This document shows, piece after piece, positions 19,745 to 28,360 of a stretch of 64,000 bases of DNA. Each line of letters starts with the position of its first letter. The first letter of the stretch is position 1. Origin of the DNA: Thiohalomonas denitrificans (GTDB lineage Bacteria; Pseudomonadota; Gammaproteobacteria; Thiohalomonadales; Thiohalomonadaceae); assembly GCA_020725115.1 (NCBI GenBank), contig DYFR01000002.1, positions 45,871-109,870 on the forward strand. The letters run 5' to 3'. Under the pieces are notes generated by a model. That model did no database searches. It was not told where the DNA came from and was given only the letters and a program-made list of their open reading frames with translations. Both the position numbers and the translations under genes were made by a program.

Positions 19745-19802
19745 TGGCGGAGAGGGTGGGATTCGAACCCACGGTAGACTCGCATCTACAACGGTTTTCA
19801 AG
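19745..19802 (-). pseudogene. 3' half of disrupted host tRNA-Ser(UGA) (element left junction)
   Basis: RC CTTGAAAACCGTTGTAGATGCGAGTCTACCGTGGGTTCGAATCCCACCCTCTCCGCCA; complements the 5' half at 28320-28360 to give a perfect tRNA-Ser. Confidence 0.93.
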
Positions 19803-19961
19803 TTTTACGGAGGCTGCTTGTAACTAGCTTTCCGCTACTTTGTTTAGCCCGCCGCGCCTTTGCAAAACAACGACTTATCGTCGTTGCATGTTTTGTGTAG
19901 CTTGTCGTAACTTAGCCTAGATTGCTAAACATACGCTAAAACAGCGTCTAGGAGAAGGGCT

Positions 19962-21263
19962 ATGCCGAAGCTAACGAAGACTTTCATCGACAAGGTGCAA
20001 CCGCCCGCCGAGGGCTACGCGATTCACTGGGACGACTCGCTCAAGGGGTACGGGCTACGGGTCACCGCTGCGGGCAAGCGGGTGTTCATTGCGCAGGGGC
20101 GCGTCAGGGGCAAGGCCGTGTGCGTCACGATTGGTCCTTATGGGCTATACACGGAAGAACTGGCGCGCAACGGACTGACCGACAGCAGCGGCACGATTAT
20201 CACGAAAGGCGCGCGCCACATCCTGCAAGCCATGCGCGACGGTATCGACCCGCGCGACGCGAAGAAAGCGGACGAGGCAGCCAAGGTGACATTGCGGCAG
20301 GTCGCTGACGCTTACATGGGGCGACCGGGTAAGCTGAAGGACAGCAGCAAGAGCGAGATTGAGCGGCATGTGACCACAACCTTCAAGGCGTGGGAACACA
20401 AGCCCATCACTAGCATCACCGAGGACGACTGCCGCAAGCGCTACCGCGAAATTCTGACGAAGGGGCTTCGCGGCAACCGTGAGGGCGGTTCGCCAGGTCA
20501 AGCCAATCAGGCGTTCAGCGTGTTGCGCGCCCTCATCAACTATGCCGGTCGGCAGTACAAGAAGCACGACGGCACGCCGCTGGTGCTGCACAACCCTGTC
20601 GCGGTGCTGAAAGACGATTGGGCCGAGCTAGACCCGCGCGATTCGAGCATCCCGCTGCCGAAGGTGGGCGCGGTGTGGCACATGCTCACGCAGGCACGCG
20701 CCAACGCCTACAACCGCGATACGTGGTCAAGCATCGACCTTGTGATGTTCCTCATGCTGACCGGCGCACGCAAGGAAGAAGCCGCGGCACTGACATGGGA
20801 TCGGGTCAATCTTGATGAATGCTGGTGGCACATACCCGACCCCAAGAATCGTCGGCCTGTCTGGCTTCCGTTATCTGCGCAGGCGGTCGAACTGCTCAAG
20901 ACCCGCCAGCGGGTAGAGGGCAACCAGCATGTCTTTCCATCATGGGGCAAGAGTGGCCACATCAAAGACCCGCGCGACACCATGAAGAAGGTCAGCGAGA
21001 CGGCAGGCACACACTTGTCGCCACATGACCTGCGGCGCACCTTCGCTGACATTGGATATGCCGAGTGCGGCGTCGATCTCTCCAAGGTCAAGCAACTGCT
21101 GAACCACAAGCCTCACGGCGTCACGGAGAAGCACTACCTGAAGACATCAAAGCTGCAATATCTACTCCCCGAGGTGCAGCGGGTAGCTGACTGGATAGAG
21201 AAGCAGGGCAAGCTCGCGGAGGCAATCGCCAAGGGTGAAAACGTGGTGCCGCTCCGTGCTTGA
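19962..21263 (+). CDS. Tyrosine recombinase/integrase (DUF4102-type N-terminus)
   Basis: LTKTFIDKVQPPAEGYAIHWDDSLKGYGLRVTAAGKRVFIAQGR N-terminus; catalytic region LTGARKEEAAALTWDRVN ... HDLRRTFADIGYAECGVDLSKVKQLLNHKP. Confidence 0.95.
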   Translation: MPKLTKTFIDKVQPPAEGYAIHWDDSLKGYGLRVTAAGKRVFIAQGRVRGKAVCVTIGPYGLYTEELARNGLTDSSGTIITKGARHILQAMRDGIDPRDAKKADEAAKVTLRQVADAYMGRPGKLKDSSKSEIERHVTTTFKAWEHKPITSITEDDCRKRYREILTKGLRGNREGGSPGQANQAFSVLRALINYAGRQYKKHDGTPLVLHNPVAVLKDDWAELDPRDSSIPLPKVGAVWHMLTQARANAYNRDTWSSIDLVMFLMLTGARKEEAAALTWDRVNLDECWWHIPDPKNRRPVWLPLSAQAVELLKTRQRVEGNQHVFPSWGKSGHIKDPRDTMKKVSETAGTHLSPHDLRRTFADIGYAECGVDLSKVKQLLNHKPHGVTEKHYLKTSKLQYLLPEVQRVADWIEKQGKLAEAIAKGENVVPLRA

Positions 21264-21507
21264 TTTACGGGCTTGCCCCGAAATATCAAAGCAATACATC
21301 ACGTTGCAAAGGCTGCACAAGCTCAGTAAAGTAGCAGCCAACACACCTCGCCTTTCCGTCACTTCGCGCAATGCGTCGGGACGCGATCAACGAAAAGTGC
21401 TGCATGGGCAGACGGCGGGCAACTGGCATCGGTAACGCGATGCAGTTCGCCTACCGACTGCCCTTTTTGCATCTGCACGTCGGTGGGCTTGCTGAGAGGC
21501 ACTGCCC

Positions 21508-21816
21508 ATGCAAACCGAAAGCCTGTCCTTCGAGCAGCTTTGCGAGCTGTTCAACTACACCCCGAAGAATCGCCCCCTGAGCAGCCGCGAAGCAGCGGAG
21601 ATTCTGCACTTCCAGCCCAACACGCTTGAGCAGAAGCGCCTAGCGGGCACTGGTCCCCGCTACTTCCAGCCCGACGGCTGCCGCCGCGTCTATTACTCCG
21701 AACGCGACGTTCTTTTCTGGCTCGCCTCCGGCGCACGCACCAGCACCAGCCAGCGCCCTGACCACGTTGCACTGACCCGCGCGCCGTGGCTTCCCGCCGA
21801 ACAGCAAACCTCATAA
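21508..21816 (+). CDS. HTH/excisionase-like DNA-binding protein
   Basis: LSSREAAEILHFQPNTLEQKRLAGTGPRYFQPDGCRRVYYSERDVLFWL resembles AlpA/MerR-like winged HTH. Confidence 0.7.
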   Translation: MQTESLSFEQLCELFNYTPKNRPLSSREAAEILHFQPNTLEQKRLAGTGPRYFQPDGCRRVYYSERDVLFWLASGARTSTSQRPDHVALTRAPWLPAEQQTS

Positions 21817-21954
21817 CTGGCGGTCGCCTATGCGCAACCCGAACAGCGCCACCGCTTGCGCCTGCGGTACTACACCGCCGCCTAGCCCACTCGCAGCCCA
21901 TCAACAAAAAAGCGGCAAGGTTGTGCCGACCTTGCCGCCCGAGAGGTACTGAAT

Positions 21955-27411: not shown

Positions 27412-27896
27412 AACCGCTCCACCGCTTCCAGTCGTCAGCGGTGCAGTGCGCCCGGAATCGAGAAGGCCGGGCCGTCCCATAGCGAACCGTCGGACGTAAA
27501 TCAAACGGGCGATGTCAGGAACGGGGCCGCTCCTAACCCGTCAGACCTGACCTTCAACGGGTGCCGATGGCATCCGTTGTCGTGAATAGCCCCCGACAGG
27601 GTCACACTGCCGGGGGCTGGTGCAGTGGCATCGGGCCGCTTCGCATGGGTTAGAAAAACACTGCATGCGCAGTGTGTGACAAAGCGGTTGCATCAAGCAA
27701 CGCCCGCAAATCGGGCTTATCACGCCTACAAGCCGACTTCATCAGACTCAATACAAGCACGAAGGCACCGCGTCGAACGTCGCCTGTACGTCTCTCGGGC
27801 GGTAGCCGGGTTGCTGGGCGGCACAGGCGGCGATTACCACACTGCTGCCCCAAGGGTACGGGCAAGCGCTGCGCGTGGCCTGTAGCGGCTTAGCGC

Positions 27897-28097
27897 CTAT
27901 TTCTTGCCAGTAGTAGGAGGGCGGTGCTTCTCGACGATTGCGCGAATTTCCGCATTCAGGTTCGCCTGATCCTGCCGAAGCTTGGATTCTGCCGCTCGCT
28001 CGGTTGCTGCACCTTGCGGGTTGAAGCGCCCGTTCTTGTCGTAGTTCCCGGGGTTTTCCTCGGGGAAGTCCTCGAAGTATTCCGACCATTCACCCAT
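27897..28097 (-). CDS. Hypothetical protein (element cargo)
   Basis: 66 aa, MGEWSEYFEDFPEENPGNYDKNGRFNPQGAATERAAESKLRQDQANLNAEIRAIVEKH. Confidence 0.45.
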   Translation of the reverse strand: MGEWSEYFEDFPEENPGNYDKNGRFNPQGAATERAAESKLRQDQANLNAEIRAIVEKHRPPTTGKK

Positions 28098-28113
28098 GAC
28101 TGGCTCCTATGTT

Positions 28114-28203
28114 TGGCGGTGGGTCAGGGATTCGAACCCTGGAAGGACTTACATCCTTGCTAGTTTTCAAGACTAGTGCATTCAACCGCTCTGCCAACCC
28201 ACC
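28114..28203 (-). tRNA. tRNA-Ser(UGA), complete, carried by the integrative element
   Basis: RC GGTGGGTTGGCAGAGCGGTTGAATGCACTAGTCTTGAAAACTAGCAAGGATGTAAGTCCTTCCAGGGTTCGAATCCCTGACCCACCGCCA, 90 nt, all stems pair. Confidence 0.96.
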
Positions 28204-28319
28204 GTACTCTGTAACGCGCTAAGAATCTGCTAAACGGCGCAAATGCCGCCACCGAAATAAACTTGCTAACACGTTGTTTTTACTGCAATTTTTATTGCTC
28301 GCGCGCCGTCCGAACGTAA

Positions 28320-28360
28320 GTTTTCAAGACCGTCGCTTTCGACCGCTCAGCCACCTCTCC
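28320..28360 (-). pseudogene. 5' half of disrupted host tRNA-Ser(UGA) (element right junction)
   Basis: RC GGAGAGGTGGCTGAGCGGTCGAAAGCGACGGTCTTGAAAAC; acceptor GGAGAGG pairs with CCTCTCC of the 3' half at 19745. Confidence 0.93.

Follow-up and report, generated by a model that had tools for sequence, protein, structure and literature searches.

A satellite-like element in Thiohalomonas denitrificans that splits the host tRNA-Ser(UGA) gene and carries a complete replacement, with relatives in other Pseudomonadota

The locus described here raises the question of how a bacterium survives the integration of an element that cuts one of its tRNA genes in two and does not rebuild it. The window, a stretch of 64,000 nucleotides from a draft genome of Thiohalomonas denitrificans (contig DYFR01000002.1, forward-strand positions 45,871 to 109,870; coordinates below are those of the window), contains an integrase element of ~8.5 kb (19803..28319, 8517 bp) that interrupts the host tRNA-Ser(UGA) gene in its anticodon loop. 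The 5′ half of this gene (28320..28360, minus strand) ends in the core CTTGAAAAC, with the anticodon loop CTTGAAA at 28328..28322, and the displaced 3′ half (19745..19802, minus strand) starts at the core and has GCCA encoded. When the 9-bp CTTGAAAAC common to both halves is counted once, joining them gives a 90-nt tRNA-Ser(UGA) with every acceptor (7/7) and anticodon-stem (5/5) pair formed. ARAGORN and Rfam did not call either half as a gene, and there is no functional tRNA at either element junction, the core being 7–9 bp and neither junction being called as a tRNA; the right junction reads on into TTACGTTCGG, which does not rebuild the gene. An earlier note, made from the letters of this DNA alone, had claimed both the split in the anticodon loop and the lack of restoration by a 3′-half copy, and both claims are borne out. 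The 9-bp CTTGAAAAC is shared by the halves, but comparison across relatives refines the minimal core of the insertion to the 7-bp loop CTTGAAA.

The empty site is found in three genomes of the same genus, which carry the intact 90-mer with 1–2 differences (98–99% identity to the rejoined gene) and flanks that are continuous without the 8.5 kb, at ~78–85% identity to the window on either side as far as the anticodon loop. At 98–99% identity to these empty sites, the host halves in the window show no decay. Three other genomes that appeared to be further splits in the blastn table (G010, G053, and G050) were rejected, as they contain intact tRNAs with divergent 3′ halves.

Inside the element, a complete tRNA-Ser(UGA) lies at 28114..28203 (minus strand), where the earlier note had placed it, and was called by ARAGORN and by Rfam (RF00005, 58.6 bits), with its acceptor, anticodon, and T stems all intact. 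It shares 71% identity with the host tRNA-Ser(UGA) over 83 nt, and its 5′ half differs as well. If integration were conventional, a 3′-half copy brought by the element would restore the host tRNA, and the complete gene would simply be the restored one. Restoration of this kind is used by six related elements (L079, L089, L101, L102, L103, and L119), and most loci looked conventional before the host 5′ half was searched for with a 7-bp core. In the window, however, the complete gene does not include the host 5′ half, which forms 12/12 pairs with the displaced half but, with the 3′ half of that gene, only 4/7 acceptor pairs and 2/5 anticodon pairs (plus one G-U). This additional 5′ half, together with the empty sites, refutes conventional restoration in the window, leaving this explanation extremely improbable.

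The gene in the element, then, is best regarded as a replacement tRNA. It is 99% identical to the chromosomal tRNA-Ser(UGA) of an unrelated genome from another family (G393, a single contig), near which no integrase of the element's kind was found, and 97% identical to a gene of a second genome. From the 99% match we infer that the replacement was taken from another bacterial lineage, with capture presumably in that direction. The element of locus L083 carries the same tRNA as the window element, whereas that of L082, with an integrase 96% identical to the window's, carries a different one, indicating that the tRNA cassette is exchanged.

Whether the cell needs the replacement depends on what else can read UCA. 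The tRNA-Ser set of the window's own genome comprises GCU, GGA, and CGA genes along with the element-borne UGA gene only (RF00005 and ARAGORN), and no second tRNA-Ser(UGA) was found there by these two methods, by blastn with the rejoined gene, or with two loop patterns. The assembly consists of 40 contigs, is 91% complete, and is without several other expected tRNAs, so the status of the element gene as the sole copy is strongly supported but not final. Within this 91% complete assembly the disrupted host tRNA-Ser(UGA) is non-redundant, and the same holds in 14 further genomes. The element gene was therefore the only intact tRNA-Ser(UGA) detected in 15 of the 18 genomes checked, namely the window's own and those of L082, L083, L085, L086, L088, L090, L091, L094, L095, L097, L098, L106, L107, and L117. 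In these 15 genomes, tRNA-like matches to the loop patterns were confined to the displaced 3′ half and the element gene; the extra matches in the genomes of L094 and L095 are unlike tRNA 3′ halves.

The three remaining genomes are exceptions of different kinds. That of L096 (MAG G404) holds one further tRNA-Ser(UGA), located inside another such element, and that of L110 has a truncated locus in which only the element gene was found. The genome of L093 (MAG G300) holds two further intact tRNA-Ser(UGA) genes (L151 and L152), which are identical, lie on other contigs and, in one case, near a distant integrase (28% identity); these may reflect either a mixed MAG or another phage-borne replacement.

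Could the element tRNA instead be passenger cargo, serving translation by a phage or satellite or escape from tRNA-cutting defences, with the split tolerated through another UCA reader? Phages do carry tRNA-Ser, and such roles have been proposed in literature cited by Guerrero-Bustamante and Hatfull (2024; PMC10865867). Against this, the isotype of the element gene matches the target, Ser(UGA), and the gene sits next to the att site, in 18/18 replacement loci, and no other Ser(UGA) was detected in the 15 genomes above. UCA is also used in host genes near the element, with four such codons in a response regulator and one in uvrC, and under standard wobble rules the GGA, CGA, and GCU tRNA-Ser of this genome do not read it. 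Passenger cargo is consequently a very unlikely explanation. The argument of the earlier note that the element rescues an essential function gains from the failure to detect any other UCA reader, here and in the 14 further genomes, whilst remaining bounded by the completeness of the assembly.

The remaining content of the element is compatible with a small satellite. A tyrosine integrase of 433 aa (19962..21263, plus strand; Pfam Arm-DNA-bind_3 and Phage_integrase, PHROG phrog_1) is followed by an HTH_17/AlpA-like protein (21508..21816, plus strand), supported by weak Pfam (below cut-off) and PHROG matches and by conservation in relatives, which is a candidate excision factor or regulator. A primase/helicase-like replication protein is encoded at 21955..23505 (plus strand; Pfam DUF3987, phrog_3022 DNA primase), a DUF5681 protein at 25986..26489 (plus strand; Pfam, conserved in relatives), and small conserved ORFs at 26486..27411 (plus strand; tblastn conservation). 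Two conserved proteins have no function assigned, one at 24606..25190 (minus strand; phrog_21588) and one at 25199..25978 (plus strand), the latter sharing 33–84% identity with its counterparts in relatives. Its AlphaFold model is all-helical (pLDDT 84.6) and had no significant structural match in the PDB or BFVD, and for that reason does not tell the type of element. No capsid, tail, or large terminase gene was found among the ten element ORFs scanned with Pfam and PHROG, which, with the 8.5-kb length, is satellite-like. The element had no Megablast match in phage or plasmid collections, PADLOC identified no defence gene, and NCBIfam gave only weak recombinase matches to the integrase.

Two att arms flank this content. 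The integrase-proximal, P-like arm (19803..19961, plus strand) has CCGTAAAA adjoining the core in the minus-strand reading, and TTAGC/GCTAA motifs at 19844, 19912, 19924, and 19935. In the distal, P′-like arm (28204..28319, minus strand) TTACG adjoins the core, a conserved AAACAACGTGTTAGC lies 42 nt from it, and TTAGC repeats occur at 28218, 28229, and 28265. Seven of the 23 TTAGC/GCTAA copies in the element fall in the two arms, which make up 275 of 8517 bp, and each arm contains a pair spaced 11 bp apart (19924/19935 and 28218/28229). These repeats are candidate arm-type sites for the integrase, flanking the core. An inverted repeat CGTAA/TTACG at attP was seen in the window's clade and L085 but is not general, and is not claimed for the family. 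The replacement tRNA starts where the distal arm ends, and the 117-nt gap before this gene is probably the arm itself rather than a random spacer.

The earlier note treated the arrangement as exceptional, a framing that does not survive a wider search. Among 274 genomes of the same class, only one distant relative of the integrase was found (E ≤ 1e-60). Searching genome contigs and viral contigs with an alignment of three integrase sequences, however, recovered 48 loci in the genome contigs and further ones in the viral contigs, and ~30 of these integrases adjoin a displaced tRNA-Ser(UGA) 3′ half. When the 7-bp loop CTTGA[AG]A was taken as the core for locating the host 5′ half, 17 further loci in Beta- and Alphaproteobacteria were found to combine a split host tRNA-Ser(UGA) with a complete element-borne one. 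A previous classification based on the 9-bp core had made most relatives appear conventional; this was reversed with the 7-bp core, which located an orphan host 5′ half upstream of the complete tRNA. The family thus contains 18 replacement loci, the window included, and six conventional ones.

A draft of 40 contigs might be suspected of an assembly chimera, but the junctions in the window have the expected shared core and a correctly placed integrase, and the same arrangement is present in isolates and MAGs of many families. Independent recurrence of the structure in other assemblies, among them those of several cultured strains (Cupriavidus pauculus UM1, Rhizobium ICMP 5592, and Dechloromonas agitata is5), makes misassembly so unlikely as to be nearly negligible.

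In all 17 loci where both host halves could be read, again counting the window, they rejoin with 12/12 pairs (7/7 and 5/5), with one G-U in two cases. As a control, the host 5′ half was paired with the 3′ half of the element tRNA, and in the loci compared this was never fully Watson-Crick. The displaced 3′ half and the orphan 5′ half therefore derive from one gene.

Three attP layouts can be distinguished by how the tRNA is supplied, namely a 3′-half copy (the six conventional elements named above), a full tRNA 9–20 nt behind the crossover, which would use the host promoter, and a full tRNA outside the distal arm. In the long class, defined by a complete tRNA 117–146 nt behind the crossover, the distance from core to replacement tRNA is 118 nt in the window and in L150/L083, 117 nt in L082 and L088, 124 nt in L095, L096, L097, and L107, 125 nt in L098, 145 nt in L086, and 146 nt in L094, giving ten loci besides the window when L083 and L150 are counted as one. 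The short class (9–20 nt) has seven loci, with distances of 9 nt in L085, L093, and L110, 17 nt in L117 (read as L155), and 20 nt in L090, L091 (read as L154), and L106. The layouts cluster on the integrase tree without tracing to a single origin, with four changes for the long layout, four for the conventional, and five to six for the short, from which it follows that the rescue layouts have switched.

Side observations were made at several loci. In the MAG of L096, another long-type end (L157:713-955) shows an orphan 5′ half, ~149 nt, and then a complete tRNA-Ser(UGA); its host 5′ half is similar to that of L096, and it probably reflects strain variation or an additional element. At L130:8100-9300, an element with the window's tRNA-Ser(UGA) has a distal flank that abuts prophage-like genes and not a tRNA 5′ half; this may be a secondary site, or the element may lie within a prophage. 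Integrases more distant within the family lie at the corresponding loop of other tRNAs, including Ser(GCU) (L108 and L115), Lys (L116) and, in delta-type proteobacteria, Leu-like genes (L112, L113, L118, and L126–L128). Beyond the displaced tRNA 3′ half in L079 is a type I restriction-modification-like gene set (L079:334-8783), possibly part of a second, tandem island at this tRNA-Ser site.

Taken as a whole, it is highly probable that a satellite-like element splits the host tRNA-Ser(UGA) and replaces it with its own complete, foreign copy, which is needed for viable integration, and that excision restores the host gene exactly. The tyrosine integrase would recombine the CTTGAAA loop in tRNA-Ser(UGA) with an attP containing these 7 bp but no tRNA 3′ half; since attP does not supply this half, the host gene is cut in two. 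The complete tRNA-Ser(UGA) immediately outside the distal att arm would compensate for the loss and, being the only detectable UCA reader, is predicted to be what makes integration viable, with survival of the integrant depending on it. The replacement is probably transcribed from the host tRNA promoter, in a transcript that also spans the orphan 5′ half and the att arm and from which RNase P would free the 5′ end of the tRNA. Short-class genes lie 9–20 nt behind the host 5′ half, a spacer too short to accommodate a separate promoter outside that half. In the window spacer no promoter scored better than in shuffled sequences and no terminator was found; the other long spacers likewise gave no such promoter, except perhaps that of L086. 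A weak or non-sigma70 promoter may nevertheless be present in the arm of the 117–146 nt class.

The earlier note had also suggested that the element could addict its host, holding it hostage through an essential tRNA. Loss of the element tRNA while the element is integrated should indeed be lethal, but in all 17 loci that could be compared, with both halves readable, the host tRNA formed on excision should be well paired, and the halves in the window are undecayed. Loss of the element by precise excision should then be harmless, and the addiction claim is not sustained, an addiction module being quite improbable here. Lock-in would arise only by imprecise deletion or by later decay of the halves.

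The principle of splitting and replacing a host tRNA is already published as tRNA-dependent lysogeny, which was defined in mycobacteriophages and other actinobacteriophages with examples including Fionnbharth, cluster L, Gaia, and OneUp, and in which the phage tRNA was proven necessary and related integrases use either rescue mode (Guerrero-Bustamante and Hatfull, 2024; PMC10865867). As in those phages, a tyrosine integrase with an arm-binding domain recombines at a host tRNA gene, no tRNA is rebuilt at the junctions, a complete tRNA of the same isotype is carried in the element, and both modes occur among related integrases. The elements described here differ in having Pseudomonadota hosts, a tRNA-Ser(UGA) target, a length of 8.5 kb without recognisable virion genes, and a tRNA 9–146 nt from the crossover, and the requirement for the element tRNA, proven there, is a prediction here. 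The same study states that prevalence outside actinobacteriophages needs investigation (PMC10865867).

Comparable cases have been noted in other bacteria. In Sinorhizobium meliloti, a phage-related sequence with an isoacceptor gene resembling that of unrelated bacteria is described as replacing a tRNA inactivated by integration (PMC11476347); this description, in the discussion of that paper, is brief, does not detail the junctions, and concerns mostly prophages and other isotypes. For the Lactobacillus johnsonii prophage Lj965, as cited in PMC10865867, the tRNA is likewise not rebuilt, and a cognate tRNA is present in this Lactobacillus prophage as a putative replacement. Conventional tRNA islands, such as those catalogued by Islander (PMC4383910, anticodon-loop subsite A), also have a tyrosine integrase, an anticodon-loop crossover, and a displaced 3′ fragment beside the integrase gene, but there the 3′ part is contained in attP, so that the gene is restored, which is not the case here. 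P4-like satellites are alike in small size and in combining an integrase, an AlpA-like HTH protein, and a primase/helicase-like gene, a likeness seen here at the level of general families. In the literature searched, which took in few subscription papers, there was no description of small Pseudomonadota elements of this kind, of the tRNA-Ser(UGA) target, or of the two att-adjacent layouts. What is new, therefore, is the occurrence in small satellite-like Pseudomonadota elements and the presence of three rescue layouts in one integrase family.

The replacement of tRNA genes, known mainly from Actinobacteria phages, is also common in small Pseudomonadota islands, here seen in Beta- and Alphaproteobacteria and in small elements rather than full phages. 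The interest of these findings lies chiefly in this breadth, in the anatomy of the elements, and in a likely blind spot of island finders, where the orphan 5′ half would be missed, as happened here with the 9-bp core classification. Tools that match an intact tRNA to a displaced fragment are expected to mistake the element tRNA for a host gene that has been restored. Close relatives that differ in their cassettes, such as the window element and L082, make it feasible to study by experiment both the exchange of tRNAs and how elements switch between restoring and replacing the host gene, and integrases of the family could serve as integration tools. We lean towards the view, with rather less assurance than for the window itself, that these elements form a small, probably helper-dependent Pseudomonadota family for which tRNA replacement is the normal mode of integration, with repeated switching among three attP layouts, and in which a foreign tRNA routinely replaces the host's only UCA reader, unseen by island finders. 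In this way a mobile element can exchange an essential and supposedly vertically inherited tRNA for a gene of foreign origin.
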